Source of the DNA: Candidatus Eiseniibacteriota bacterium
Lineage (GTDB): Bacteria > Eisenbacteria > RBG-16-71-46
DNA length: 64,000 nucleotides
Reading direction: 5' to 3'
Assembly (NCBI GenBank): GCA_016215625.1
Contig: JACRIW010000081.1
Span: 62,001-126,000 of the forward strand
Shown: piece by piece, positions 5,358 to 55,251 of the stretch
Layout of the letters: each line of letters opens with the position of its first letter
How positions within the stretch are numbered: the first letter of the stretch is position 1
The notes under the pieces: model-generated
The model's database searches: none
What the model saw: only the letters and a program-made list of their open reading frames with translations
What the model was told of the DNA's origin: nothing
Made by a program: the position numbers and the translations under genes

Positions 5358-7385
5358 GTGCCGACCCTTCCCGTCATGCCCCGATGGCTCGCCCCGGTGC
5401 TGTTCGCCGCCGGGCTGGGCGCGCTGTACGCCGGCGCCCTCGCGACCGGCTTCCTGAACGACGACTACCTCTTCCTCGAGGAGGCGCGCCGGCACGGCTG
5501 GCAGTCCCTCGGCGGCACCGGCGGGGCGCTCGCGAACTACTTCCGCCCGCTGTCGCGGCAGGCGTGGTTCGCACTCTTCACTCCGCTGGCCGGCTCGCAG
5601 GCCTGGCCGTTCCACGCCGCGAACTTCGCGCTCTTCCTCGCCGCGTGCGCGCTCCTGCACCGCTTCCTGAAGGAGCAGGCCGGCGAGGCCGGAGCGTGGC
5701 TCGGCACGCTGTACTTCGCGACGCTGCCGCTGCAGCGCGTGAACCTCACGTGGATCTCGTGCAACCAGGACCTGCTGGCGCTGGCCGCGACGCTCGCCGC
5801 CTTCGCCGCGTGGCGCGCGAACCGCGGCGCGCTCGCGGCGATCGCGTACCTCGCGGCGATGCTGAGCAAGGAGACCGCGGTGCCGCTGCCCGTGGCGCTG
5901 TTCGCGTGGAGCGTGTGGATCGCGGGCCGCGACGCGCGCGCCACGCTGCGCGCGCTCGCCCCGCTGGCGCTGCCGCTCGCGCTCTGGGCGGCGGGCGAAT
6001 GGTGGCTGCGCACGACGAGCGTCGCGGCGGCGGACTTGCGCTTCGGCCCCGGCGCCGCGCTCGCGACACTCGTGCACCTCGCGCAGTCGCTCGCCGGGCT
6101 CGAGGCGCCCGAAGCGCTCGCGCAGGGATTCGCGCTCGCACGGCCCTCGCTCGCCGCGCTCGTGCTGCTCGTGCTCGTGGCGCTGGCGTGGCCCCGCGCC
6201 GAAGCCGCACCGCCGACCGCCGCCCCGGCCGAACCCCCGGTCGCGGCGGCGGCCCCGACCGGCGCGCGCGTGCGCTTCGCCCTCGCCTGGGCCGTGCTCT
6301 TCGCGCTGCCCGCCGTCCCGCTCGCGCACACGTGGAGCGCCTACTACTACACGCTCTCCGCGGCCGGGGCGGCGCTGCTCGTGGCGCTCGCCGCGCGACG
6401 CGCCGGACGCTGGACCTGGAGCATCGCCACGCTCGCGCTGCTCTTCTGGCACGCCGTGGTCTCGGCGACGCCGTCGTTCGCGGTGACCGAGAACGCCTGG
6501 AACCCGACCAGTCACCTGACCGCGCACTACTTCGAACGCGGCGCGCAGCTGAGCACTCGCCTGCGCGAAGCGCTTCGGCGCGTCGAGCCGCGGCCAGAGC
6601 CGCACACGCGCTTCTGGTTCGCGACACTGCCGCCCTACGCCGGCTTCCAGATGGGCAACGGCGCCGGCATCCGCGACCTGTACGGCGACGCGACGCTCGA
6701 GTCGCACTTCTACTCGCAGTACGCCGAGTCCACCGCGGCCAGGCATCCCGGCGTGTTCCTGTTCTGGAACGGCGTGGACTTCGAGCGCCTCTACGAACGC
6801 TCGCGCGACCCGCTCTTCCAGGTGGGCGGCGACCTGCTGCTGCTCGACCGCCCGGGTGGCGCGATCTGGGCGTTCCGCCGCGCGCTCGACTCCGGCGAGA
6901 CGCCGCAGGAGGTGCTGCCGTGGCTGGGCTGGGCGTACCTGTGGAACGGCCAGCGCGACGACGCCGAGCGCGCGTGGCGCGCGTTCGGCGCGAAGGACGA
7001 CACGACCGCCTACGTCACGTGGCTGCGCGCCGCGCGCACGGCGCTCGACGAAGGGGACACGACCGCGACGCGGCGTGCGCTCTTCGAAGCCATGCGCGCC
7101 GGCATCGGCCGGCCCGAGGCGCACGCCGTGCTCGGCGAGCTGCTGCGCGCGCGCAGCCCCAAGTTCGCGCTGCTCGAGACCAAGGTCGCCACGCGGCTGA
7201 TGCCGAACGACTGGCTCGCCCGCCGCGACCTCGTCGCCGGCCTGCTCGCCGCGCGGCTCGACGACCAGGCGGAGGCCGAGCTCGCGGCGCTGCGCCGCAT
7301 TCACCCCGACTGGCAGGGCGACGTCACCGCCGCGCAGCTCGAACGCGAACTGCATGCGCGCCGCGGTGGACGCCCCGCACGCTGA
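5358..7385 (+). CDS. GT-C-type multi-pass membrane protein with C-terminal TPR-like region
   Basis: Polytopic protein of 675 residues with roughly ten hydrophobic segments up to about residue 385, followed by a soluble C-terminal part. The first loop has F-L-N-D-D-Y-L-F-L and then Y-F-R-P-L-S-R. An acidic pair in loop 1 is typical of GT-C glycosyltransferases, which use polyprenyl-phosphate sugars. The C-terminal third (about 500-675) has helix pairs such as L-P-W-L-G-W-A-Y-L-W-N-G-Q and A-E-R-A-W-R-A-F, resembling TPRs. The start is GTG 5358, with ATG 5376 as alternative. A -10-like TAGAGT ends nine bases before the GTG, suggesting little or no leader. The substrate is unknown. Confidence 0.8.
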   Translation: MPTLPVMPRWLAPVLFAAGLGALYAGALATGFLNDDYLFLEEARRHGWQSLGGTGGALANYFRPLSRQAWFALFTPLAGSQAWPFHAANFALFLAACALLHRFLKEQAGEAGAWLGTLYFATLPLQRVNLTWISCNQDLLALAATLAAFAAWRANRGALAAIAYLAAMLSKETAVPLPVALFAWSVWIAGRDARATLRALAPLALPLALWAAGEWWLRTTSVAAADLRFGPGAALATLVHLAQSLAGLEAPEALAQGFALARPSLAALVLLVLVALAWPRAEAAPPTAAPAEPPVAAAAPTGARVRFALAWAVLFALPAVPLAHTWSAYYYTLSAAGAALLVALAARRAGRWTWSIATLALLFWHAVVSATPSFAVTENAWNPTSHLTAHYFERGAQLSTRLREALRRVEPRPEPHTRFWFATLPPYAGFQMGNGAGIRDLYGDATLESHFYSQYAESTAARHPGVFLFWNGVDFERLYERSRDPLFQVGGDLLLLDRPGGAIWAFRRALDSGETPQEVLPWLGWAYLWNGQRDDAERAWRAFGAKDDTTAYVTWLRAARTALDEGDTTATRRALFEAMRAGIGRPEAHAVLGELLRARSPKFALLETKVATRLMPNDWLARRDLVAGLLAARLDDQAEAELAALRRIHPDWQGDVTAAQLERELHARRGGRPAR

Positions 7386-7402
7386 CACCGAACGGAGGAA
7401 GC

Positions 7403-8413
7403 ATGTCCCGCGGCCGAGTGCTCATGGTGGAGTTCGAGAGCGAAGTCCTGCGCGGCAATCCCGCGGGCGACCCGCACGTGCGGCGCATCCCGATCTACCT
7501 GCCGCCGTCGTACGACCGGGACACCGAACGGCGTTACCCGGTGCTGCACGTGCTCACGGGCTTCACCGGCCGCGGGCGCATGCTGCTCAACGACAGCACG
7601 TTCTCGCCGTCGCTCGACGACCGCCTCGACGCGCTGATCGCGAACGGGCGCTGCTCCGAGACGATCGTCGTGATGCCCGACTGCTGGACGCGCTTCGGCG
7701 GCTCGCAGTACCTCGACTCCGCGGCCACCGGGAACTACGCGACGCATCTCGTGAGCGAACTCGTGCCGTGGGTGGACGCGAACCTGCGCACGCTGCCCTC
7801 GCGCCGCCATCGCGGCGTGGTGGGCAAGTCCTCCGGCGGGTTCGGCGCGCTCACCCTCGGCATGAAGCACGCCGACGTCTTCGGCGCCGTCGCGAGCCAC
7901 AGCGGGGACGCCTACTTCGAATACTGCTACCGCCCCGACCTGCCGCTCGCCTGCACGGTGCTGCAGCGCGCCGGCGGCGTGAAAGCGTTCCTCGACGCGT
8001 TCGACGCGAAGCCGCAGAAGGGCAAGGACGACTTCACCGCCTACAACATCGTCGGGATGGCCGCGGCCTACTCGCCCGACCCCGCTGGCGAACTGGGGAT
8101 CGCGCTGCCGTTCGATCTCGCGACGGGCGAGTTCCGCGAGGACGTCTGGCAGCGCTGGCTCGCCTTCGACCCGGTCGCGCTCGCCGGCTCGCACGCCGCA
8201 GCGCTGCGCTCGCTCGAGCTGCTGTTCCTCGACTGCGGCACGCGCGACGAGTTCCACCTGCACCACGGCACCCGCATGCTCTCGCGCCGGCTTTCCGCGC
8301 TCGGGGTGAAGCACGAACACATCGAGTACGACGACGGGCACATGAACGTGAGCTACCGGTACGACCTCAGCCTGCCGAAGCTCGCCGCCGCCCTCGCGGC
8401 CCCGTCCGTATAG
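7403..8413 (+). CDS. alpha/beta-hydrolase, putative esterase (esterase D-like)
   Basis: Predicted cytoplasmic serine hydrolase of 336 residues, family PF00756-like. The visible catalytic set is the nucleophile elbow G-K-S-S-G with S143, an acidic residue in L-D-C-G-T-R-D-E-F (about 275-283), and H313 in D-D-G-H-M-N. The N-terminal R-I-P-I-Y-L-P-P-S-Y-D followed by Y-P-V-L-H-V-L-T-G matches the family's first strands and oxyanion region. There is no signal peptide. The start is ATG 7403 with GGAGGA ahead, 17 bases after the membrane protein gene, so they are probably one operon. The natural substrate is unknown. Confidence 0.9.
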   Translation: MSRGRVLMVEFESEVLRGNPAGDPHVRRIPIYLPPSYDRDTERRYPVLHVLTGFTGRGRMLLNDSTFSPSLDDRLDALIANGRCSETIVVMPDCWTRFGGSQYLDSAATGNYATHLVSELVPWVDANLRTLPSRRHRGVVGKSSGGFGALTLGMKHADVFGAVASHSGDAYFEYCYRPDLPLACTVLQRAGGVKAFLDAFDAKPQKGKDDFTAYNIVGMAAAYSPDPAGELGIALPFDLATGEFREDVWQRWLAFDPVALAGSHAAALRSLELLFLDCGTRDEFHLHHGTRMLSRRLSALGVKHEHIEYDDGHMNVSYRYDLSLPKLAAALAAPSV

Positions 8414-8447
8414 CCGGACCAAACGGAGATTCGCAGGACGAAATCCA

Positions 8448-8466
8448 GGCCGCCCACTGGGCGGCC
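8448..8466 (+). terminator. perfect GC-rich inverted repeat after the esterase gene
   Basis: Nine-base arms (GGCCGCCCA and TGGGCGGCC) flank a single central base. The repeat lies 34 bases after the esterase stop. It lacks a T-tract, so it may be a weak terminator or an RNA-stabilising hairpin. Confidence 0.45.
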
Positions 8467-8568
8467 CGAGCGGCGTCTTCCGACGGGATACGCCAAACAA
8501 GAGGACAGGCCCACCTCACAAACTCCCTTTCCACAACCAGTAACAGGCTCGGGAACGCAGTTTCATCA

Positions 8569-8596
8569 TTGCAAAATGCACGATCCCGCCTATACT
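8569..8596 (+). promoter_or_regulatory. sigma70-type promoter for the secreted-protein pair
   Basis: TTGCAA (8569-8574) and TATACT (8591-8596) are 16 bases apart, matching 4/6 and 5/6 of the housekeeping consensus. It is the best promoter-like site in the 394-base gap at 8414-8807. Transcription would start near 8603, leaving a leader of about 200 bases with a GCCCCG/CGGGGC hairpin near 8655-8680. I see no known riboswitch in the leader. Confidence 0.55.
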
Positions 8597-8807
8597 CGCG
8601 ACCGTGCTTGGTCCCCCTGCGGGCCCTCGATCGGTCGGCTCGTCCTGCACGCCCCGCCCCGTGACCTTTGTCCCGGGGCGTCACATGTTCGTCGACGCGC
8701 GTGCCTGCCGCGACAGGCGCCGCACCGGGGAGTGATGTGCAGGACATTCACCGGCACCTGGACGACATCCTTCGCTATTCGTATCCCAGTTCCTCTGGAG
8801 GTGCTCG

Positions 8808-9494
8808 ATGAAGCGCAGTGCGTGGCTACTCCTCTTGGCCGCCATGACGGTGTTCGCCGTCCCCGCGCAGGCGCAGCGCGATTTCCTCTGCGGCTACACC
8901 GGCTTCGACTACGTCGTGCCGCAGACGCCGCAGCCCACGATCCCGACCCCGTTCCTCGCCACGGGCGACGAATACCGCGCGGTCGGCTTCGTGACCTCGT
9001 TCTCGACCATGTTCACCGGCGTGGTCGGTGGCGGCGAGCACACGTTCGCACTCTCGGGCGCGACGGCCTCGAGCAGCTCGTTCGTCGGCGGCGTGCTCGA
9101 AGTGGTCTTCGATCCGCACGCGCGCTTCCGCATCTACGAGGACGCGGCGAACAACGGCAGCTACGGCACGAATCCGCCGAACGGCACCTCGCCGAGCACG
9201 TTCACGGACGGCACGCTGTTCCTCGGCGCCGACGTCAACTCGCTCGTGCTCGTGTACGACTACAACGACAACTCGGGCAACTTCGAAGGGCTCGCCACGC
9301 TGGACGAAGGCTCGGCCCTCTGGGTCGTGTCGCCGTCGCGCCGCTCGGGCTGGGTGCTCGGCGGCCAGGCCGGCCGTCCAAACGGCTCGATTCCCGCCGG
9401 CTACGTGAACCAGATCAGCGGTGAAGTGCAGATCCCGAGCGTCGTTCCCGCCGCCCACAAGACCTGGGGTCAGATCAAGACCCTGTACCGCTAG
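8808..9494 (+). CDS. secreted protein with W-G-x-I-K-T-x-Y-R C-terminus
   Basis: I do not recognise this protein. It has 228 residues. A classical Sec signal peptide covers residues 1-22 (M-K-R-S-A-W, hydrophobic core, cleavage near A-Q-A-Q). The mature part is rich in Gly, Ser, Thr and aromatic residues in alternating patterns, suggesting an all-beta domain. Two Cys at most are present. The last residues are K-T-W-G-Q-I-K-T-L-Y-R, almost identical to the end of the next gene although the bodies differ. The start is ATG 8808 preceded by GGAGGTG. It is probably exported and co-transcribed with 9540-10277. Confidence 0.8.
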   Translation: MKRSAWLLLLAAMTVFAVPAQAQRDFLCGYTGFDYVVPQTPQPTIPTPFLATGDEYRAVGFVTSFSTMFTGVVGGGEHTFALSGATASSSSFVGGVLEVVFDPHARFRIYEDAANNGSYGTNPPNGTSPSTFTDGTLFLGADVNSLVLVYDYNDNSGNFEGLATLDEGSALWVVSPSRRSGWVLGGQAGRPNGSIPAGYVNQISGEVQIPSVVPAAHKTWGQIKTLYR

Positions 9495-9539
9495 CCTCGA
9501 CCGACATCCGGCGCCCGAAGGCGCCACGGGAGGTTGCTC

Positions 9540-10277
9540 ATGAAGAGGATTCTCGGCACGGCGGTCTTGTTCGCACTGCTCGCGACGAGCGTGTTCGCTC
9601 CGCTCGCGTCCGCACAGTGCGTCACGGGCACCGGCGTGAACGTGCTCTTGAAGTGGGACGCCAACGGTTTCTCGTTCGAGAACGGTGCGCCCTACACCAA
9701 CTACGTTTCGCCCGCCGGAAACGTGCTCACCAACGTGCTCGGCGTGTCGCTGTTCTGCGCGCCGCTCTCCGGCCTCAACCCGAACGATCCCGCCAAGGAA
9801 TACACGATGGTGTGGACCGGCCTGGTCTCGGGCGGCACGGTGACCACGCCCTTCGGCGCGTCCGGCTCCAAGTACAGCACGGTCTACACGGGCGGCAGCT
9901 TCGCGCTGTACGAGGGCCCGGTGAACGCGCGTGCGTGGACGGCCGCCACGGTGCCCGTTCCGGGCTCCGCGCTCGGTGCGTACACGGACGGCGCGATCGT
10001 GCTCAGCGGCGCGATCGACTCGCTCACCACGACGATCACGCGCAGCTCGCTCGGCACCGTGAACGGCTCGTTCCGCGGCAAGTACCGCGTCACGGGCGGC
10101 ACGCTGGCCAACCTGTTCTGCCCCGGCGGCGCCGCAGGCCTGATGGACGGGCTGTGGTTCCCGGTCGCCCCTCCCGCGGGCTACACGGGACACAACAACG
10201 GCAAGTTCGACGCTCCGGACTGCACGACCCCGGCGAAGACCACCTCGTGGGGACGCATCAAGACGATGTACCGGTAG
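9540..10277 (+). CDS. secreted protein, second member with W-G-x-I-K-T-x-Y-R C-terminus
   Basis: I do not recognise this protein. It has 245 residues. The signal peptide M-K-R-I-L-G followed by a hydrophobic stretch ends near A-S-A-Q (about residue 26). The mature domain is beta-rich and has several Cys (C-V-T-G-T near the start, F-C-A-P, L-F-C-P-G-G, P-D-C-T-T) that could form disulfides in the periplasm or outside. It ends T-S-W-G-R-I-K-T-M-Y-R, matching the end of the preceding protein. ATG 9540 has GGGAGG at 9529-9534; a TTG two codons earlier overlaps this site and is less likely. A strong terminator follows. Confidence 0.8.
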   Translation: MKRILGTAVLFALLATSVFAPLASAQCVTGTGVNVLLKWDANGFSFENGAPYTNYVSPAGNVLTNVLGVSLFCAPLSGLNPNDPAKEYTMVWTGLVSGGTVTTPFGASGSKYSTVYTGGSFALYEGPVNARAWTAATVPVPGSALGAYTDGAIVLSGAIDSLTTTITRSSLGTVNGSFRGKYRVTGGTLANLFCPGGAAGLMDGLWFPVAPPAGYTGHNNGKFDAPDCTTPAKTTSWGRIKTMYR

Positions 10278-11259: not shown

Positions 11260-11427
11260 ATGAGCCACTCCTCCACGCCGGCCAAGACCGGCGATCGCGT
11301 GCGCATTTCCTGTCCCGGCTGCGGCCGCCACGACTTCGTCGCGTGGCCCGCGAACCAGGACACCTACGCCTGGAAGTGCTTCAACTGCGAGAAGTCGTTC
11401 GAGCTGCACAAGGGTGGAAAGCACTGA
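11260..11427 (+). CDS. small zinc-ribbon protein
   Basis: A 55-residue protein. It has two C-x2-C knuckles, C-P-G-C and C-F-N-C, separated by 18 residues with D-F-V-A-W-P between, which is the geometry of a single zinc ribbon. The N-terminus is polar and has no signal. GC-rich codon use and the position directly ahead of queE (gap of four bases) support it as real. The function is unknown. It could be a nucleic-acid or protein-binding accessory, or just the first gene of the operon. GGAAGG lies a few bases before the ATG. Confidence 0.75.
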   Translation: MSHSSTPAKTGDRVRISCPGCGRHDFVAWPANQDTYAWKCFNCEKSFELHKGGKH

Positions 11428-11431
11428 TCGC

Positions 11432-12091
11432 GTGACACTGCGCTGGTCCGAACTTTTCCACTCGCTGCAGGGCGAAGGCCCGTCCGCGGGAACTCCCGCG
11501 CACTTCCTCCGCCTGCAGGGCTGCGACGTCGGCTGCCGCTGGTGCGACACGAAGTACACGTGGAGCCCCGACGGCGGCACGGCGGGCACGTACGAAGACG
11601 CCCGGGCGCGGCTGCACGCGCTCGGCGCCGCGCCGCTGATCGTGATCACGGGTGGCGAACCGCTCACGCACCCCGGCATCGCCTCGCTCGTCGAGCGCGC
11701 ACTCGCCGACTGGGAGCGCGTCGAGATCGAGACGAGTGGCGTCGTGCCCCCGCCCGTGCGGCACGAGCGGCTGTACTACAACCACTCGCCGAAACTGCCT
11801 TCGGTCACCGACCGCTCCGCGGACACGTGGCGCCACGCCGCGGCGTTCGCGGCCGACCCCAACACGACGTTCAAGATCGTCGTCGGCGACGACCCCGACA
11901 CCGGTGACATGCTGCGCCTCGTGCGCACTCACGACCTTCCCCGGAACCGCATCATGCTCATGCCCGAAGGACTCACCGACGCCGCGCTGCACGAACGCGC
12001 CGTGGCGCTCGCCGAACTCTGCAAGCGCGAAGGACTGCGCCTGTCGCCCCGGCTGCACGTCTGGCTGTGGGGCGCGCGGAGGGGCGTGTGA
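11432..12091 (+). CDS. queE: 7-carboxy-7-deazaguanine synthase (radical SAM)
   Basis: Converts 6-carboxy-5,6,7,8-tetrahydropterin to 7-carboxy-7-deazaguanine in preQ0/queuosine biosynthesis, using S-adenosylmethionine and a 4Fe-4S cluster. The product has 219 residues. The cluster motif is C31-x3-C35-x2-C38 ([10 protein letters not shown]). Other landmarks are F-H-S-L-Q-G-E-G near the start, the S-adenosylmethionine-binding I-T-G-G-E-P-L, and E-I-E-T-S-G. The chosen start is GTG 11432; GTG 11414 would overlap the zinc-ribbon gene. It overlaps queC by GTGA. Confidence 0.95.
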
Positions 12092-12795
12092 GCGCCGCGA
12101 CGAAGCGTGCCGTCGTGCTGCTCTCGGGCGGGCTCGATTCCGCGACGTGCCTCGCGTGGGCGCGCGCGCAGGGCTTCACGTGCGCGACGCTCGCCGTGGA
12201 CTACGGCCAGCGCCACCGCGTCGAACTCGAGGCCGCGGCGCGCGTCGCGAAAGCGCTCGGCTCCTCGGACCACCGCACCGTGCGCATTGACCTGTCGGCG
12301 ATCGGCGGCTCGGCGCTCACCGCCGACATCGCGGTGCCCAAGGGCCGCGACGAGGCCGCGATGGCCGGCGCGATTCCGGTCACGTACGTGCCCGCGCGCA
12401 ACGCCGTGTTCCTCGCGACCGCGTTGGGCTTCGCCGAGACGCTCGGCGCCTCCGACCTCGTGGCCGGCATGAACGCGATCGACTACTCGGGCTATCCCGA
12501 CTGCCGCCCCGAGTTCGTGCGCGCGTTCGAATCGCTCGCGAAGGTGGCCACGAAGATGGGCGTGGAGGGCGCGACCTGGCGCGTGCACACGCCTCTCATG
12601 GAACTCGACAAGGCCGGCATCATCCGGCTCGGCGTGTCGCTGGGCGTGGACTACGCCATCACCCATTCCTGCTACGATCCCGCGCCCGACGGACGCGCCT
12701 GTGGAGCCTGCGATTCCTGCCTGCTCCGCGCCCGCGGCTTCCGAGAAGCCGGCGTGACCGATCCCACCCGCTACCTGAACTCCCCCGAGGGCTGA
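12088..12795 (+). CDS. queC: 7-cyano-7-deazaguanine synthase
   Basis: ATP- and ammonia-dependent conversion of 7-carboxy-7-deazaguanine to preQ0. The protein has 235 residues. The PP-loop ATPase motif S-G-G-L-D-S is at residues 13-18. V-D-Y-G-Q-R-H, V-P-A-R-N and [14 protein letters not shown] are family hallmarks. The C-terminal zinc site is formed by S-C-Y-D plus C-G-A-C-D-S-C. GTG 12088 overlaps the queE stop by GTGA, and this start places the PP-loop at the usual distance. Confidence 0.96.
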
Positions 12796-12799
12796 AGTC

Positions 12800-13165
12800 G
12801 TGCGCGTCGAACTGGTCAAGCGTTTCCGATTCGAGTCGGCCCACCGTCTCCCGATGGTGCCTCCCGACCACAAGTGCCACCGCATCCACGGCCACTCGTT
12901 CCGCGTGGACGTCACGATCGCCGGCGAGATCGATCCCAAGATGGGCTGGCTCGTGGACTTCGGCGAGATCGCCGCGCGCGTCGAACCCATCCTCCGGACG
13001 GAGTTGGACCACCGCCTGCTGAACGACGTGCCCGGACTGGAGAATCCGACGTCCGAGCTGCTCAGCGTGTGGCTCTGGAACCGGCTCAAGGACGTGGTGC
13101 CGCATCTGGACGCGATCACCGTCCACGAGACGTGCACCGCCCGCTGTACCTACCGCGGAAACTGA
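12800..13165 (+). CDS. queD: 6-carboxy-5,6,7,8-tetrahydropterin synthase
   Basis: Converts dihydroneopterin triphosphate to 6-carboxytetrahydropterin, the step before QueE. The protein has 121 residues. Zinc ligands are H15 (S-A-H-R-L) and H30/H32 (H-G-H-S-F); C26 in K-C-H-R-I-H is the catalytic Cys. D-F-G-E-I and L-D-H-R-L-L-N complete the signature, and H-E-T-C near the end provides the C-terminal acid. GTG 12800 lies four bases after queC. Neither folE nor queF is in the window, so the pathway is completed elsewhere or uses preQ0. Confidence 0.95.
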   Translation: MRVELVKRFRFESAHRLPMVPPDHKCHRIHGHSFRVDVTIAGEIDPKMGWLVDFGEIAARVEPILRTELDHRLLNDVPGLENPTSELLSVWLWNRLKDVVPHLDAITVHETCTARCTYRGN

Positions 13166-24662: not shown

Positions 24663-24756
24663 CGCGCTGCGCGCGCACACCTTCCCCCCGGCGCCGAAAC
24701 CGGACGCTCGACCGTCCCCATTCCCCGGCGCGCCCGCCGGATGCAGGAGTGCTCTC

Positions 24757-25473
24757 ATGCCGCGTCGCCTCACCGCGCCCGCCTTCGTGCTGGCCGCCCT
24801 TTCGCTCGTCGCCGGTCCCGCCCTCGCCGCCGATCCGGCCACCCACGCGCTGCCCTCGCCCGCGTGGGCGGTGGAGTTCGGCATCGCCAACGCCTCGCTC
24901 ACGTCGTTCGACGGCGCGACGATCTCGCTGCGCCGGCAGAAGAGCCCGCACGCGGCGTGGCGCTACGGGCTGAGCGTCTCGGCGAGCACCTCGAAGAACG
25001 ACCAGGAGCGCACGGCGTCGCAGTCCACGCAGACCTCGAACGACGTGCTGAACACCTCGTCGAGCAACCTCGCGCTCTCGGTCACGCGCCTGACCTTCCC
25101 CGCGCCCGACGCCGTGGTGCGCCCGTGGTTCGGCGCCGGGCTCGAGCTCGGCTGGAGCGCCTCGAAGTACGAACGCAGCACCGTGTATCGCGACCAGAAC
25201 GGTGGGTTCGACGGCTCGCAGGGCTACGAGGACCGCAACCACGGCCCGAGCGCCGCGCTCATGGGATTGTTCGGGCTCGAGTGGAACGCGTCCGACCGGT
25301 TCGCGATCCACGCGCAGTACGGGCAGGCGGTGCGCTATCGCCGGCTGTTCTACGAATACGACGAACACCAGGTCTACACGGGCGGTTCCAGCGACTACCA
25401 CCGCGAAGGACCGATGAGCGAGTGGTCCACCTACGGCGTGAGCGCGCGCGCCGGCGTGAGCGTGTTCTGGTGA
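24757..25473 (+). CDS. predicted outer-membrane beta-barrel protein, copy 1
   Basis: I recognise no named family. The 238-residue protein has a signal peptide (residues 1-25, ending A-L-A-A). The mature part alternates polar and hydrophobic residues, with G-L-E-L-G-W-S-A-S, G-L-F-G-L-E-W-N-A and a final aromatic strand A-R-A-G-V-S-V-F-W. Ending in Phe-Trp fits the C-terminal signature of outer-membrane barrels. F-D-G-A-T-I-S-L-R-R-Q, I-H-A-Q-Y-G-Q and the C-terminus are shared with the next gene. AGGAGTG precedes the ATG. Confidence 0.78.
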   Translation: MPRRLTAPAFVLAALSLVAGPALAADPATHALPSPAWAVEFGIANASLTSFDGATISLRRQKSPHAAWRYGLSVSASTSKNDQERTASQSTQTSNDVLNTSSSNLALSVTRLTFPAPDAVVRPWFGAGLELGWSASKYERSTVYRDQNGGFDGSQGYEDRNHGPSAALMGLFGLEWNASDRFAIHAQYGQAVRYRRLFYEYDEHQVYTGGSSDYHREGPMSEWSTYGVSARAGVSVFW

Positions 25474-25478
25474 GCGCG

Positions 25479-26153
25479 ATGAAGCGCCACGTCCTGCTCT
25501 GGGCGTTGCTCGGCGCTTCGGCGCTGCTCGTCCTGCACGCGCGCGCGGCGCACGGCGGTGCGGAGCCGCGCTCCTGGCGTCCCGCCACGGCCAACGCGCT
25601 CGAGTTCGAGATCGTCCGCGGGGAGCTGGCCGACTTCGACGGCGCCACGATCTCCGTGCGTCGCCAGCATGGCGAGCACGCCGTGTGGCGGTTCGGGTGC
25701 GGTCTCTCCGCATCGAGGCAGCGGCTGCACTCGGACGGGAATGCGGTCTCGTTCACGAGCGTGCCGGACGAACTGCACTCGGACGACTTCTCGCTCTCCG
25801 CACAGTTGACCCGGCTCACGTTCCCGTGGCCCGAGCGAAGACTGCGCCCGTGGGCGGGGCTCGCGCTCGGTGGCGGCACCGGCAGACGGGGCACGGAAGA
25901 CGTCCGGTCAGGCCTCGCGGTCAGCAGCCAGTCCCGCACTCCTCGAGTGTACGCGGCGGCGCTCGCCGGACTCGAATACGCGCTGTCCACGAGGTGCGCG
26001 ATGCACGCGCAGTACGGACAGGGACTGCAGTATTCCGGCCGCAGGAGTGGCGGCACACTCCAATATGGCGAGACCCAGACGGTGACCGGGAAATCGACCA
26101 GCTGGCAGCTCTACTCCACCGGCGCCCGTTTCGGTCTCGCGGTCTTCTACTGA
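25479..26153 (+). CDS. predicted outer-membrane beta-barrel protein, copy 2
   Basis: Paralog of the preceding gene, 224 residues from ATG 25479; an in-frame GTG at 25470 overlaps the upstream stop by GTGA and may be the real coupled start. It has a signal-like hydrophobic N-terminus (M-K-R-H-V-L-L-W). Shared elements are F-D-G-A-T-I-S-V-R-R-Q, L-T-R-L-T-F-P-W-P, M-H-A-Q-Y-G-Q-G and the final G-A-R-F-G-L-A-V-F-Y. Both copies are short barrels, about 8 strands by size. A terminator follows. Confidence 0.78.
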   Translation: MKRHVLLWALLGASALLVLHARAAHGGAEPRSWRPATANALEFEIVRGELADFDGATISVRRQHGEHAVWRFGCGLSASRQRLHSDGNAVSFTSVPDELHSDDFSLSAQLTRLTFPWPERRLRPWAGLALGGGTGRRGTEDVRSGLAVSSQSRTPRVYAAALAGLEYALSTRCAMHAQYGQGLQYSGRRSGGTLQYGETQTVTGKSTSWQLYSTGARFGLAVFY

Positions 26154-26181
26154 CGCGCGACACACGCGAAACCACCAACAC

Positions 26182-26216
26182 TTCGGCCGGCCGGGAATCC
26201 TTCCCGACCGGCCGAA
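26182..26216 (+). terminator. long hairpin between convergent operons
   Basis: Sixteen-base arms (26182-26197 and 26201-26216) with one mismatch and a TCC loop. It lies 28 bases after the barrel pair and 100 bases beyond the convergent DUF488 genes, so it could serve both directions. Nothing else is visible up to 26316. Confidence 0.75.
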
Positions 26217-26316
26217 TGCTCGCCGCGAAGCGAACGTGAAGCGTGCCGCCGCAGGAGTCGCGAGAGCGGCAGCCCGTCATTCGAGCCGCACCCTCGCGCC
26301 CTGTGAGCAATCATCG

Positions 26317-26754
26317 TTATCGAAGGTGCACGACCTCCATCGGCCCCCAATGCCGCCCGAGGTACTCCACGACGAGCCTTCGATGACAATTCGTCGGCAG
26401 GTGCTCGCTGCAGAGCATGCAGCTGTCTGCGACGAGGTCGCGTGACACCTTGTGCTCGATCTGACGACTTTCCATCAGGGCGACAAACCCGCTCTCGTAC
26501 ACGCCCCAGTCGCCCTTCAGTTTCTTGTACCGATCGAGCAGTTCCTGTGTCGGCGCGAGCAGCGGTTCGTGCACATAGTCCATGCCGGCGAGTTCCTTCA
26601 CGAAAAAGCGCAGGTCATCGCGCTTCGCGAACCCCGCCAGTTGCGACTTGTTGTTTAGGCGGACGTCCAGCAGCCGTTTCGCCCCCGAGCCCCGAAGCAG
26701 GGTAAAGAACCGCTCGGCGGATTTCTCGGTGAATCCGATCGTGAAGACCTTCAA
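26317..26754 (-). CDS. DUF488 family protein, second copy of the cassette
   Basis: DUF488 protein of 145 residues, function unknown. It starts K-V-F-T-I-G-F-T, then has L-L-D-V-R-L-N-N-K-S and the family's second motif, M-L-C-S-E-H-L-P-T-N-C-H-R-R-L. These conserved D-x-R and C-x-E...C-H-R residues could form an active or metal site. The start is TTG 26754: it has GGAGAG a few bases before it and overlaps the upstream stop as TTGA. It is last in a three-gene coupled unit. Confidence 0.85.
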   Translation of the reverse strand: MKVFTIGFTEKSAERFFTLLRGSGAKRLLDVRLNNKSQLAGFAKRDDLRFFVKELAGMDYVHEPLLAPTQELLDRYKKLKGDWGVYESGFVALMESRQIEHKVSRDLVADSCMLCSEHLPTNCHRRLVVEYLGRHWGPMEVVHLR

Positions 26755-27377
26755 GGGCGCTCTCCTTCGGCCGCGTCCGCGGGGCCTTCGCGCACCAGCC
26801 AGGCGACTTCTCGCCCCTGCGAGGCATAGGCTCGGGCCAACGGCGCGTTGGCGTCCTCGAACAGCCCCGGTCCGTCGGGCTCTCGCCAGAGTCGAAGCAG
26901 GTCGCGCTCGAGGTCCGCGTGCGACTTCAACGAGCCGTCGGCGAGGATGTGCCGCACTTCCGCCGGAGGATCGAGCAGCGGCTGCAGGTGCCGCGAGACG
27001 AGCAGCGTGCGATGACAAGACAGCGGATCCTTCTCGGCACACATGAGCGCGATGACGAATCGCTCGGCGCCCTCTCTCACTCGCTCGAGGCCCTGTCGGA
27101 ACAACGCGGTCTCAGCGACGCGCTCGTAGCTGACACGGCCATCGACGATCAGCCGGTGATCCGAGGCGCGTCCACCGAGCGAATCGCCCATCGGCAGGTA
27201 CTTCAGTCCGCTGCCGACACAGGCAAGCCGCAACGCCTCTCCGCTGAAATGTGGCGCGCGCGCGCTGACCGGCCTCGAGCGAACATCCACGAGCACCTCC
27301 ACCGCATGCGCGGCGAGCAACTCGCGAAATCGCTCGAACGTGTGGAGCGAATGACCGATCGTGTAGACGTGGTTCAT
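26751..27377 (-). CDS. DUF488 family protein, first copy of the cassette
   Basis: DUF488 protein of 208 residues. It begins M-N-H-V-Y-T-I-G-H-S, has L-V-D-V-R-S-R-P-V-S and ends its core with L-M-C-A-E-K-D-P-L-S-C-H-R-T-L-L. A further C-terminal segment of about 60 residues is absent from the smaller copy. The two copies are diverged and so probably not redundant. ATG 27377 overlaps the upstream dual-OB gene stop (ATGA) and its own stop overlaps the next start (TTGA). Confidence 0.88.
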   Translation of the reverse strand: MNHVYTIGHSLHTFERFRELLAAHAVEVLVDVRSRPVSARAPHFSGEALRLACVGSGLKYLPMGDSLGGRASDHRLIVDGRVSYERVAETALFRQGLERVREGAERFVIALMCAEKDPLSCHRTLLVSRHLQPLLDPPAEVRHILADGSLKSHADLERDLLRLWREPDGPGLFEDANAPLARAYASQGREVAWLVREGPADAAEGERP

Positions 27378-28048
27378 CGACCCTCCTCGGGAAGCCGAAG
27401 CATACCCGCGACGAGCTTGTACATCTCGTCATGAAACGGCTCGCCGACCGAGATGCAGAGGAGATAGGAGCCTTCCAAGGTGCGCGGCTCGGCATGAGCC
27501 GGCTCCAATCGCACCGCTTCGGGATCGGTGACGCTGAGGTCGTACCGATCGCCCGCATGCGTGAAAACGAGCCGCGGTTTCGGCTTGTCGGCGAACATTC
27601 GCCAGGACCAGATCGGTTGCTCGACTCGAATCAACCGAAGCGAAGCGGGCTGTGCGTCGGCCAGGGCTTTGGGCATCCGGTCGTTCTGCGGGTGAATGCC
27701 GTTCACCCAGAGCGAATCGACGGGGTCGCACATCGCGGCGACTTCTTGAACCCCCGCTCTGCCCCGAGAAACCCAGGGAACTCCGGCAACGACGCGGTAG
27801 TCCTCGCGGTGGCAGGAATGCGGCGCCGCCGACCCGAGCTTGACCTCGATCAGATCGAGCAACTTCGGATCGCGCCCTTCGATCGATCGCTCTCGAAGAG
27901 TAAGCTCGCCGGTCGGCGCCGCGCCGACCGGCCGAACCCACTGACCACCCCACTCCCCGCCCCATATCTTGCCCGCCACACAACGCTCGTGGTGCTTCCA
28001 CGAGTTCGCGAGGCAGACCAGCGTGACCGTCTTCCCCTGCAGGCTCAT
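27374..28048 (-). CDS. dual-OB-type protein preceding two DUF488 genes
   Basis: Soluble protein of 224 residues. The N-terminal half has K-T-V-T-L-V-C-L-A-N-S followed by C-V-A-G-K and W-V-R-P-V-G, which I associate with a tandem OB-fold ('dual OB') domain found next to DUF488 genes; this match is from memory and moderate. It ends with S-Y-L-L-C-I-S-V-G-E-P and helical residues. OB folds commonly bind nucleic acid, which hints at the cassette's target but proves nothing. Start ATG 28048, 51 bases after fhs on the same strand. Confidence 0.72.
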   Translation of the reverse strand: MSLQGKTVTLVCLANSWKHHERCVAGKIWGGEWGGQWVRPVGAAPTGELTLRERSIEGRDPKLLDLIEVKLGSAAPHSCHREDYRVVAGVPWVSRGRAGVQEVAAMCDPVDSLWVNGIHPQNDRMPKALADAQPASLRLIRVEQPIWSWRMFADKPKPRLVFTHAGDRYDLSVTDPEAVRLEPAHAEPRTLEGSYLLCISVGEPFHDEMYKLVAGMLRLPEEGR

Positions 28049-28099
28049 CTTCCGACGCTTTCTCGGGGGAATGGGCGGGGGCCACAAACGTGAAGCGTG

Positions 28100-29728
28100 C
28101 TACCGCTGGAACACGATCTCGCCGTCGTCGTTCAGGTCGAACTTCTCGGCGAGCGACTCCTTGGGCAGGCCGGGCATGCGCATGATCTCGCCCGTGATCG
28201 GAACGATGAAGCCCGCGCCGGCCGCGAGCTGGATCTCGCGCACCGTGACGAGGAAGTCCTTCGGACGGCCGAGCAGCGCGGGGTTGTCCGAAAGCGACTG
28301 CTGCGTCTTCGCGATGCAGACCGGCAGCTTGCCGAAGCCGGCCTTCTCGAGCTGCAGGCGGTCACGCTTGCCGCGCGCCGTGTAGTCCACGGCGACGGCG
28401 CCGTACATCTCGCGCGCGACGGTCGCGATCTTGTTCTCGATCGAATCGTTCCAGTCGTACAGCGGCGTGAACGAGGGCTCGGTCGCCGCCACCAGGTCGC
28501 GCACGACCTCGGCCAGCTCGGTGCAGCCCTTGCCGCCTTCGGAGAACGTCTTGGCGACGACGGCCTTCAGGCCGAGCGCCTCGCAGTGCAGCTTGAGCGT
28601 CTCGATCTCTTCCTTCGTGTCGGTCGGGAAGTGGTTGATCGCGACGACGCACTTCTGCCCGAACTTCTTGATGTTCTCGAGGTGCTTCTCCATGTTCGAG
28701 AAGCCCTTCACCATCGCCGCGACGTCGGGCTGGCCGACTTCGGCGAGCGGCTTGCCGCCGTGCATCTTGAGCGCGCGGATCGTGGCCACGAGCACGGTGC
28801 AGGCGGGCGAGAAGCCGCCGTACCGGCAGTTGATGTCGAAGAACTTCTCGGCGCCCAGCTCGAACGCGAAGCCGGCTTCCGTCACCACGATGTCGGCGTA
28901 CGCGAGCGCGGCCTTGGTCGCGTTGATCGTGTTCGTGCCGTGCGCGATGTTCGCGAACGGACCGCCGTGCACGAACGCGGGGACGCCCTCGGTCGTCTGC
29001 ACGAGGTTCGGCTTCACGGCTTCCTTGAGCAGCGCGGCCATGGCGCCGACCGCGCCGAGATCCTTCGCGGTCACGGGCGTGCCGTCGGAGCGGTAGCCCA
29101 CGACGATGCGGCCGAGACGGACCTTGAGGTCCTGGATGCCGTCGGCGAGACAGAGGACGGCCATCACTTCGGAGGCGGCGGTGATGTCGAAGCCGCTCTC
29201 GCGCGGGATGCCCTCCGTGCGGCCGCCGAGGCCGATGATGATGTCGCGCAGCGCGCGGTCGTTCATGTCCACGACGCGCTTCCACGTCACGCGGCGCGAG
29301 TCGATGCCGAGCGCGTTGCCGTGGTGCAGGTGGTTGTCCACCATCGCCGCGAGCAGGTTGTGCGCGGCCGAAACGGCGTGGAAGTCGCCGTTGAAGTGCA
29401 TGTTGATGTCCATCATCGGCACGATCTCGGAGGCGCCACCGCCGGCGCCGCCGCCCTTCATGCCGAACACCGGCCCGAGCGACGGCTCGCGCAGCGCGGC
29501 CGCGGCGTTCACGCCGATCTTCGCCAGGCCCTGCACGAGGCCGACCGTGGTCGTGGTCTTGCCCTCGCCGGCGGGCGTCGGGGTGATGGCCGAGACGAGC
29601 ACGAGCTTGCCGCGGCGCGGCTTGCCGGTGAACGCCTTCAACGAAATCTTCGCCTTGTAATGTCCGTACGGCTCGAGATGAGCCGGATCGATGTCGAGCT
29701 TCTTCGCAATCTCGCCAATGGGTTTCAT
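28100..29728 (-). CDS. fhs: formate--tetrahydrofolate ligase
   Basis: ATP-dependent synthesis of 10-formyltetrahydrofolate from formate and tetrahydrofolate, feeding one-carbon metabolism. The product has 542 residues, close to the family's usual 555-560. The P-loop T-P-A-G-E-G-K-T is at 51-58. Other hallmarks are R-E-P-S-L-G-P-V-F-G-M-K-G-G-G-A-G-G-G, V-D-M-N-D-R-A-L-R, H-G-G-P-F-A-N-I-A-H-G and the C-terminal I-V-P-I-T-G-E-I-M-R-M-P-G-L-P. The start ATG 29728 follows a purine-rich GAGAGAAGAGAG stretch. The divergent gap to the giant surface gene (29729-30027) shows no convincing promoter. Confidence 0.97.
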   Translation of the reverse strand: MKPIGEIAKKLDIDPAHLEPYGHYKAKISLKAFTGKPRRGKLVLVSAITPTPAGEGKTTTTVGLVQGLAKIGVNAAAALREPSLGPVFGMKGGGAGGGASEIVPMMDINMHFNGDFHAVSAAHNLLAAMVDNHLHHGNALGIDSRRVTWKRVVDMNDRALRDIIIGLGGRTEGIPRESGFDITAASEVMAVLCLADGIQDLKVRLGRIVVGYRSDGTPVTAKDLGAVGAMAALLKEAVKPNLVQTTEGVPAFVHGGPFANIAHGTNTINATKAALAYADIVVTEAGFAFELGAEKFFDINCRYGGFSPACTVLVATIRALKMHGGKPLAEVGQPDVAAMVKGFSNMEKHLENIKKFGQKCVVAINHFPTDTKEEIETLKLHCEALGLKAVVAKTFSEGGKGCTELAEVVRDLVAATEPSFTPLYDWNDSIENKIATVAREMYGAVAVDYTARGKRDRLQLEKAGFGKLPVCIAKTQQSLSDNPALLGRPKDFLVTVREIQLAAGAGFIVPITGEIMRMPGLPKESLAEKFDLNDDGEIVFQR

Positions 29729-30027
29729 GGTCTCTCTTCTCTCTCCCTCGCCGCGCGGGTCAGGGAAGTCGCGGCACATGGACCTCCGCATCCTCGCCCC
29801 GCCGGGAAACGATGGCAACCGGGCCCTTGGTCCCGCTCCCCGGTGAAATGAACCGGAGCAATCGGTTGCGGTGGCCGGAGCCCGGCCCCTACTCTGCGAC
29901 ACGACCCTGCTCTTCCGACCGTCCCGCGCCGTCCCGCGCGAGGCGGGTCGTTCCTGTCCCCGGCGACGGACCGCTGGCGACGGGCCCCCGGGCCCTGCCA
30001 TGCGCCGTCGCGACGAGGTTTGCCGCC

Positions 30028-53997: not shown

Positions 53998-55251
53998 ATG
54001 CGAGCCACGCGCATCTGGTCGTTGAAGTCGTTGTCGGACGAACTCCTCGATCGCGAATACGCCGTGAGAGTGCGGAGCGATCGAGCTTCCACCGCCGAGC
54101 TCCTGCTCTACCTGGGCGAGATGGAAGCGCGGAAGCGATACGTACCCGCAGGCTACTCTTCCATGTTCCGCTTCTGCGTCGAGTGCGGGCGCATGTCCGA
54201 AGATGTCGCCTACAAGCGCATTCGCTCCGCACGCCTCGCCCGCCGATTCCCCGCGATCTACGACCGGATCGCCGACGGTCGCATCACGCTCTCCGCGCTC
54301 GTGCTCCTCGCTCCGCAACTCACCGCGCACACGGTCGAGCACCTGCTCGCCGGCGCCGAGCACAAGACGAACGAACAGGTGAAGCTCCTGCTCGCCGAAA
54401 TCGCTCCTCGCCCCGACGTTCCGACGACGGAACGACCGAACGCACCGGCCTCGTCGAGCGCGAGCACCAACGTCAGCACTTCGTCAGCAGAACTGGCCGT
54501 ACGGCCAGTTGCCCCATCGGAATGCACCACACCCACGGAGTCGAAGGTGCCACTTGCCGAGGAGCGAGATCGCGCGAGCGCTACGCAGCAAGCCGAACCA
54601 GACGCCGCAGGGCCCGCAGGGCCCGCGGCGGCCGCGGAGCGCCGCATCGCTCCGCGCAGCCATCAGACACCGCTGTCCCCAACGAGCATGTACATCGGCA
54701 CGACGCTGCCCATGGTGGTCTACGAGCAGCTCCAGGAGGCGCGCGAACTCCTGAGCCATCGGCTCGAGTCGCGCGAGCTGTCCGAAGTCCTCGAAGCCAT
54801 GCTCGCGATCACGCTGCCCGTCCTTCGAAAGCAGAAGTTCGCGGAAAGCGCCAGCCCGCGATCGACGCGAGACCTTCGCCACGGCTCACGGAATGCCCGC
54901 CAGATACCCGCTCATGTGAAGCGAGCGGTCTGGGAGCGCGACGGCGGACGCTGCACCTTCGTCGGGACCGGCGGCCATCGATGCACTTCGCGAGAGCGGA
55001 TCGAGTTCGATCACCGGGTGCCCGTCACGAAGAGCGGCGAGGCCACGGTCGAGAACGTCCGGCTCCTCTGCCATGCGCACAATCAGTTCGAGGCGGATCG
55101 CGTACTCGGCGAGGGCTTCATGAAGGCGAAGCGCGCCTGGTCGGCCGCGGCGCAACGAAGCCGGGCCGCGATCGGCACGGGAAACGCGATACCGGAAGAT
55201 CCCGCGAGCGAGAACGCGGGACGGACGTCGCCGCTCGAACTCGAGACCTGA
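53998..55251 (+). CDS. HNH endonuclease-domain protein
   Basis: A 417-residue protein. The N-terminal part (1-130) resembles the DUF222-type helical region found before HNH domains. A Ser/Thr/Pro/Ala-rich linker follows (about 140-225), then helices, and a C-terminal HNH nuclease near 300-360: W-E-R-D-G-G-R-C-T-F, F-D-H-R-V-P-V, N-V-R-L-L-C-H-A-H-N-Q-F. The conserved His and Asn residues are present, so it may cut DNA. Such genes spread as mobile or phage-linked elements; codon use here looks less GC-biased than in the surface genes. No partner nuclease or methylase is nearby. Confidence 0.85.
   Translation: MRATRIWSLKSLSDELLDREYAVRVRSDRASTAELLLYLGEMEARKRYVPAGYSSMFRFCVECGRMSEDVAYKRIRSARLARRFPAIYDRIADGRITLSALVLLAPQLTAHTVEHLLAGAEHKTNEQVKLLLAEIAPRPDVPTTERPNAPASSSASTNVSTSSAELAVRPVAPSECTTPTESKVPLAEERDRASATQQAEPDAAGPAGPAAAAERRIAPRSHQTPLSPTSMYIGTTLPMVVYEQLQEARELLSHRLESRELSEVLEAMLAITLPVLRKQKFAESASPRSTRDLRHGSRNARQIPAHVKRAVWERDGGRCTFVGTGGHRCTSRERIEFDHRVPVTKSGEATVENVRLLCHAHNQFEADRVLGEGFMKAKRAWSAAAQRSRAAIGTGNAIPEDPASENAGRTSPLELET

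Follow-up and report, generated by a model that had tools for sequence, protein, structure and literature searches.

What is the function of a cassette of three overlapping genes that encodes one predicted nucleic-acid binder and two unlike members of a protein family without an assigned role? The question is raised by a locus within the stretch of 64,000 nucleotides analysed here (the window), where a tandem OB-fold protein, DuOB (gene A), is encoded together with two DUF488 proteins, named B and C. Comparison of the trio with PADLOC-DB 2.0.0 gave one-to-one best matches with PDC-M45A (PDLC04653, 2.5e-52), PDC-M45B (PDLC04657, 2e-59) and PDC-M45C (PDLC04658, 3.4e-67), and in the window these components are adjacent in one operon with 4-base overlaps. 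Since the three models match one to one, the window trio is, by sequence comparison, a further instance of PDC-M45, an already catalogued and uncharacterised candidate system, and the kind itself is not new. PDC stands for phage defence candidate.

The literature searched (DUF488, rhodanese, DUF4326, PDC) yielded no functional study of the trio; the name PDC-M45 was not found there, and DuOB occurred only as chance strings. NCBIfam gave no match for the trio, and a search of solved structures by sequence gave no useful relative of its proteins. The features of the relatives described below, namely a partner swap, gene fusions, embedding in BREX and Hma operons and a form in Escherichia coli, were likewise not found in the literature searched, and may perhaps be new to specialists; the work of Burroughs and Aravind (2023) may hold some of them.

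Organisation of the cassette

The three genes lie on the minus strand, a point absent from an earlier note on this DNA, which had correctly read the ATGA and TTGA overlaps that join them. Gene A (27374..28048, 224 amino acids, ATG start) is the first of the cassette and matches Pfam PF22557 at 4.8e-48. Gene B (26751..27377, 208 amino acids) begins at an ATG within the ATGA overlap with A (27374-27377), and gene C (26317..26754, 145 amino acids) at a TTG within the TTGA overlap with B (26751-26754). Both B and C match Pfam PF04343 (1.3e-21 and 1.9e-19, respectively), and C also matches DUF488-N3a at 1.8e-7. The TTG proposed previously as the start of C is supported by the overlap, by a GGAGAG ribosome-binding-type site read from the sequence 5 nt before it (26760..26765, minus strand), and by its alignment with the first residue in most C proteins from other loci.

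Upstream, a gap of 51 bases (28049..28099) separates the cassette from the housekeeping gene for formate-tetrahydrofolate ligase (FTHFS; 28100..29740, minus strand; Pfam FTHFS, 1e-245). The other flank holds two convergent open frames on the plus strand (24751..26153), the first weakly like an outer-membrane beta-barrel, under the Pfam cut-off, and the second with no Pfam match. Pattern scans of 26100-28300 found no sigma-70-like promoter and no terminator. With no promoter found and a gap of 51 bases, the cassette may be transcribed from upstream, possibly sharing its transcription with the FTHFS gene.

Conservation and coupling of the three genes

Relatives were collected with a C-protein profile as the query, taking the best 80 of at least 562 genome-contig relatives plus 37 IMG/VR contigs; hence, the survey is biased towards C-bearing loci and the closest relatives of C. 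Among those best 80 of at least 562 genome loci, DuOB, B and C occurred together in 69, from 15 named phyla and counting DuOB as canonical or divergent, whole or split, B and C without detectable DuOB in five, and C without partners in six. The trio is therefore conserved well beyond close relatives. Three of the five loci lacking DuOB begin at a contig edge and one (L073) is unexplained; in the fifth (L035) the position of DuOB, immediately ahead of B and C, is occupied by a gene encoding a Macro domain and a helix-hairpin-helix (8402-9238), which hints at a connection with ADP-ribose. In L086 a lone C lies beside genes read by eye as adenosylhomocysteinase, sugar/nucleoside kinase and permease, and the solo protein may therefore have a role related to nucleosides. 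On viral contigs DuOB and C were accompanied by B in 11 cases and by a DUF4326 protein in 24, that is, in 35 of the 37 IMG/VR contigs; of the remaining two, one is cut by the contig end (L106) and the other has no DuOB (L127).

The 4-base overlaps recur among relatives, at 35 of 62 DuOB-B junctions and 51 of 81 B-C junctions, and for this reason the coupling of the trio exceeds chance; a fortuitous overlap of three unrelated frames is ruled out by the same recurrence of overlaps and trio. Sequence distances of the partners are correlated as well (Mantel r of 0.57 for DuOB-B, 0.51 for DuOB-C and 0.70 for B-C; none of 999 permutations reached these values, and host phylogeny was uncontrolled). 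Moreover, the proteins occur as natural fusions, DuOB-B in L051 (421 amino acids) and B-C in L124 (377 amino acids), and in L063 a RecQ helicase with Helicase_C, RecQ zinc-binding, RQC and HRDC domains is fused to DuOB. In L074 the DuOB frame continues into that of DapB, possibly through an artefact of assembly or of a stop codon. A toxin-antitoxin pair is improbable, as most loci combine a binder with two conserved proteins that are seemingly catalytic. An origin of the trio as phage genes was also discarded: the proteins P0001 and P0003 and an E. coli C protein had no match in 50,697 phage records at 1e-5, PHROGs returned weak matches only for C proteins and no match for DuOB or B, and the DUF4326 protein matched a PHROGs family of unknown function at 2.3e-30.

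The DuOB protein

The window DuOB scores 164.4 bits against PF22557 (cut-off 27) with the whole domain covered, and E. coli relatives in this family are named 'dual OB domain-containing protein' by NCBI. Its AlphaFold2 model is all-beta and confident (pLDDT 95.6, pTM 0.92). The best Foldseek matches of the model were HIN-200 domains (IFI16 at E 9.4e-4, p202 and MNDA), followed by LEF-3, SSB and RPA70, and VIA-align gave a Z of 6.0 for LEF-3 (7.6 A over 172) and of 5.5 for RPA70 (4.3 A over 174 residues). These matches are modest to weak, with a best Foldseek E of 9.4e-4 and VIA Z values of at most 6.0, under the level at which a score would be meaningful alone. The prediction nevertheless stands because the list consists almost wholly of OB-fold nucleic-acid binders; in the model, DuOB is predicted with high confidence to be composed of two OB domains. 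The OB folds attributed to the first protein before any model was built thus agree with the structure prediction, whose tandem-OB matches extend over the whole length. Both outcomes that the earlier note had named in advance as fatal, a trio confined to close relatives and a first protein without an OB fold, failed to appear.

Residues S16, C23, G26 and R39 of DuOB are invariant in 92 of 92 sequences; when four members of a divergent DuOB branch are added, the invariant residues are M1, C23 and R39 only (86 rows). This branch replaces DuOB in nine loci, upstream in seven and downstream in two (L044 and L124), and scores under or little above the PF22557 cut-off.

The two DUF488 proteins

B and C score 77.9 and 70.9 bits against PF04343 (cut-off 22.2), and they are told apart by DUF488-N3a (PF22751, cut-off 27), which C exceeds with 31.9 and B falls far below with 12.8. 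They also differ in length, as previously described. The D-x-R and C-x-E...C-H-R motifs noted then are present in both, as D31-V-R33 and C113-A-E115...C121-H122-R123 in B and as D30-V-R32 and C115-S-E117...C123-H124-R125 in C. Seven motif positions in each protein (D31, R33, C113, E115, C121, H122 and R123 in B; D30, R32, C115, E117, C123, H124 and R125 in C) are invariant across all 84 sequences of B and all 118 of C that were counted. Left out of the residue counts, here and for DuOB, were frames that covered under 85% of the profile, frames that were too long, identical copies and members of the divergent DuOB branch. Because the motif residues are invariant in both, the two DUF488 proteins look active, rather than one being active and the other a decoy.

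The clade RapZ-C-DUF488-DUF4326 was reportedly placed by Burroughs and Aravind in the rhodanese/protein-tyrosine-phosphatase superfamily. The model of C is confident (pLDDT 92.6) and its matches are weak, with a maximum Z of 7.6 for CobF, then 7.3 for SsoPTP and about 6.3-7.1 for diphthine synthases, and a Foldseek E of 0.02 at best; the superposition on SsoPTP extends over 109 residues at 3.3 A with 17% identity, and these Z values are within the range of chance matches. The fold of the C model agrees with the rhodanese-phosphatase placement of DUF488 and does not prove it. In archaea, a fusion of DUF488 with an HTH ParB domain binds CTP, according to PMC12704722.

Exchange of the second enzyme

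In a second form of the cassette B is replaced by a DUF4326 protein. This form was found on plasmids from Acinetobacter, Klebsiella, Citrobacter and Moraxella, on a plasmid as small as 4,167 bases, on IMG/VR contigs and in E. coli; the window copy has B. The DUF4326 domain (PF14216) was recognised in the two proteins scanned, at 1.5e-21 and 3.3e-19, and an mSLOG domain was clear in one of the two (1.8e-34). The C-x-C, P and C-H-G-D residues of the DUF4326 proteins are invariant (27 of 27). The two partners are mutually exclusive: among 121 loci, 81 carry B and C, 26 carry C and a DUF4326 protein, and none carries both. On the tree of C proteins the second form needs at least three changes, at least two of them forced by well-supported branches, where the tree has few columns and many open forks and the count of label changes is a minimum. 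Hence, the second enzyme was probably exchanged more than once. The exchange suggests a parallel chemistry of the two enzymes on a nucleotide- or NAD-like group.

Two distant DNA searches of E. coli matched the same 12 of 5,426 genomes, all in the chromosome and with part of the query covered. In the three places read (L133, L134 and L135) the genes of the trio are side by side in recombinase/integrase islands. The trio of strain LR-29-1 (L133) spans 8311-10042. A frameshift is annotated in the DuOB gene of L134, which indicates that not every copy is intact, and an island form with all three genes annotated as intact also exists in E. coli.

Arrival in the host genome

DuOB was found in one of 47 genomes of the phylum of the window and in none of four other genomes of the same genus, one of which is 79% complete. 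The cassette had been described as less GC-rich than its neighbours, which holds in part: its coding GC of 0.60-0.67 is under that of most of the window, but the FTHFS gene next door also has 0.67. The difference is clearer at third codon positions, where GC3 is 0.76-0.80 in the trio versus 0.95 in FTHFS and 0.86-0.96 in all but two (0.77 and 0.79) of the 24 further frames called in the window, the frame caller having taken only frames with GC3 above 0.75, some of them over-long. The GC3 of the trio looks foreign and fits horizontal transfer. The nearest C protein in the tree belongs to Polaromonas, of the Pseudomonadota (66% identity, support 99/93); the transfer suspected earlier is thus in keeping with GC3, with the patchy presence and with the C tree.

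The FTHFS flank is conserved in two genomes of the same genus, with 84% and 77% identity. In a sister genome (G022) the amylase-like and FTHFS genes flank another stretch of about 3.4 kb, which holds an M1-type peptidase (read by eye) and a c-type-cytochrome-like gene, and the trio is absent. As the two barrel-like frames of the window are missing from it too, the site in G022 is a slot of variable content and cannot be taken as a cleanly empty one. In another genome (G020) the FTHFS gene lies at the contig edge. Elsewhere in the window, a 417-amino-acid frame (53998-55251, plus strand) with GC3 0.79 and no Pfam match is possibly another acquired gene, and a run of radical-SAM, QueC and PTPS/QueD-type genes (11414-13162, plus strand) represents the usual preQ0 pathway, with no link to the trio.

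Genomic context and probable function

Context was assigned in 125 loci (8 plasmid, 80 genome and 37 viral), with seeds named by PADLOC, domains taken from Pfam neighbour counts and other genes identified by phmmer to 13 seeds. PglX and PglZ of BREX immediately flank the cassette, one on each side, in three of the 125 loci (L033, L093 and L097), and HmaB and HmaC do so in four (L013, L017, L031 and L040). In seven further cases among the 125 it follows a SLFN_AlbA_2/HATPase_c_4-type gene. This gene, whose HATPase_c_4 part is recG C-terminal-like, is a recurrent fourth gene just upstream of DuOB and weakly resembles PADLOC pAgo models. Plasmid copies are found near CBASS with a HORMA gene (L005), near Csm6/Csx16/Cas1 (L004) and near viperin (L009).

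The proteins surrounding the relatives were compared with a control. The neighbour set comprised 125 of 340 neighbour proteins, the first batch of three, after removal of those above 900 amino acids or containing X and of three divergent DuOB, and the control 87 proteins from 18 stretches of five genomes of the phylum of the window. At 1e-20, 82 PADLOC models were matched in the neighbour set versus 35 in the control, where matches were mostly generic and most rows shown were PD-T4-6 models, each with a single member that may be one and the same protein. Because many PADLOC models are near-duplicates, the named systems and not the ratio of 82 to 35 are used as evidence. Many Pfam matches among the 125 neighbour proteins are transporters and metabolic enzymes. 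The window copy itself has ordinary flanks, the FTHFS gene on one side and the barrel-like frames on the other, and no defence gene was found among the direct neighbours scanned. The proximity to defence genes that the earlier note had proposed to survey is seen for some copies, among them those inside BREX and Hma operons, while the ordinary neighbours speak against a simple defence island.

The trio is best explained as a defence cassette of the PDC-M45 kind that acts on nucleic acid and has moved horizontally, a reading to which we give a probability of roughly one half. DuOB would bind the nucleic acid of an invader at single strands or ends, and B and C, perhaps as a heteromer on DuOB, would perform two related phosphate- or sugar-transfer steps on the bound molecule. 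The resulting end processing, or modification of base or sugar, would block replication or recombination of the invading nucleic acid. Genomic context suggests that the target would be the DNA of phages or plasmids and not host DNA that has suffered damage. The defence reading is proposed because the trio corresponds to PDC-M45A, B and C and some copies reside inside BREX or Hma operons; it is also supported by the plasmid and island cargo, the 37 IMG/VR contigs, the patchy presence, the fusions and the invariant motifs. A role in defence has in this way moved beyond pure speculation on the strength of the PDC-M45 match and the BREX and Hma copies, while the ordinary flanks of the window copy and the DNA-damage context of a relative of C weigh against it.

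That relative makes DNA repair the main rival. A lone C-type DUF488 protein, 57.6% identical to the window C, is encoded directly behind uvrA (6158-9432 in both L131 and L132) in formaldehyde-detoxification islands with the order frmR-adhC-VOC-DUF3422-fghA-oxidoreductase-uvrA, on conjugative plasmids of Klebsiella and E. coli. A C match is present in 122 plasmids, 80 of them predicted to be conjugative, and the linkage to uvrA was read in two records. In that case DuOB would hold strands in the manner of RPA while the DUF488 enzymes would clean blocked or adducted DNA ends, so that the mobile DNA or its host would survive genotoxic stress, and immunity to phage would not be the purpose. The RecQ-RQC-HRDC fusion and the presence of RPA70 among the best folds for DuOB point in the same direction. 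However, the C protein linked to uvrA comes without DuOB and B, no repair gene was seen among the neighbours scanned, which are part of the window genes, and the insertion of the cassette in BREX and Hma operons, its patchy spread and its carriage by islands and plasmids speak against repair. We consider repair a possible explanation with clearly lower odds than defence.

It is rather unlikely that the enzymes make or destroy a small nucleotide- or NAD-derived signal while DuOB reports bound nucleic acid. The fusion of mSLOG to DUF4326 in the alternative partner and the Macro-domain gene directly ahead of B-C in L035, a locus lacking DuOB, would suit such a signalling system, and PMC9503650 is cited in its support; against it, Pfam detects no SLOG domain in the window proteins, DuOB has a predicted nucleic-acid-type fold, and none of the recurrent partners recognised was a constant, signal-gated effector. 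Least probable, and improbable in itself, is that the trio serves exclusively as an accessory of BREX or Hma, as its insertion directly between PglX and PglZ or HmaB and HmaC might suggest, since this arrangement occurs in only seven of 125 loci, a plasmid of just 4,167 bases carries the second form, and neither BREX nor Hma genes adjoin the window copy.

Returning to the defence reading, a more specific version can be put forward tentatively, with a good deal less confidence. The trio would be a two-enzyme, tandem-OB immune module that modifies ends or strands of the invader by a chemistry new to defence. Its second enzyme would be interchangeable (DUF488-B or mSLOG-DUF4326), and the module would both plug into BREX and Hma and act alone. 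If the trio is a defence system, the families DUF488 and DUF4326, neither of which has an assigned function, would gain one, and immunity a new chemistry. The enzyme swap, the fusions and the BREX/Hma embedding indicate which parts should touch each other, and the intact E. coli island form and the plasmid form of about 4 kb make the defence reading testable.

Comparison with known systems

By its component-model matches the window trio shows no distinguishing difference from PDC-M45. The DUF4326 form departs from the catalogued one, in that only A and C are matched by PDC-M45 models and the E. coli DUF4326 protein is not recognised by PADLOC.

A resemblance of the DUF488 proteins to the rhodanese/phosphatase superfamily is suggested by the weak alignments of the C model to SsoPTP and diphthine synthases and by a Cys-Arg loop placed after a strand. 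The signature of cysteine phosphatases is C-x5-R, whereas the invariant loop of B and C is C-x9-R and C-x5-R is absent; for that reason neither protein was assigned as a cysteine phosphatase.

DuOB displays over its whole model the same tandem OB arrangement as the HIN-200 proteins IFI16, MNDA and p202 and as RPA70; with identities of about 4-10% and Z values under 6, the arrangement is alike and the scores do not establish kinship. If the tentative immune-module reading is true, DuOB would be a bacterial tandem-OB DNA sensor, comparable in function to the HIN-200 sensors of animals.
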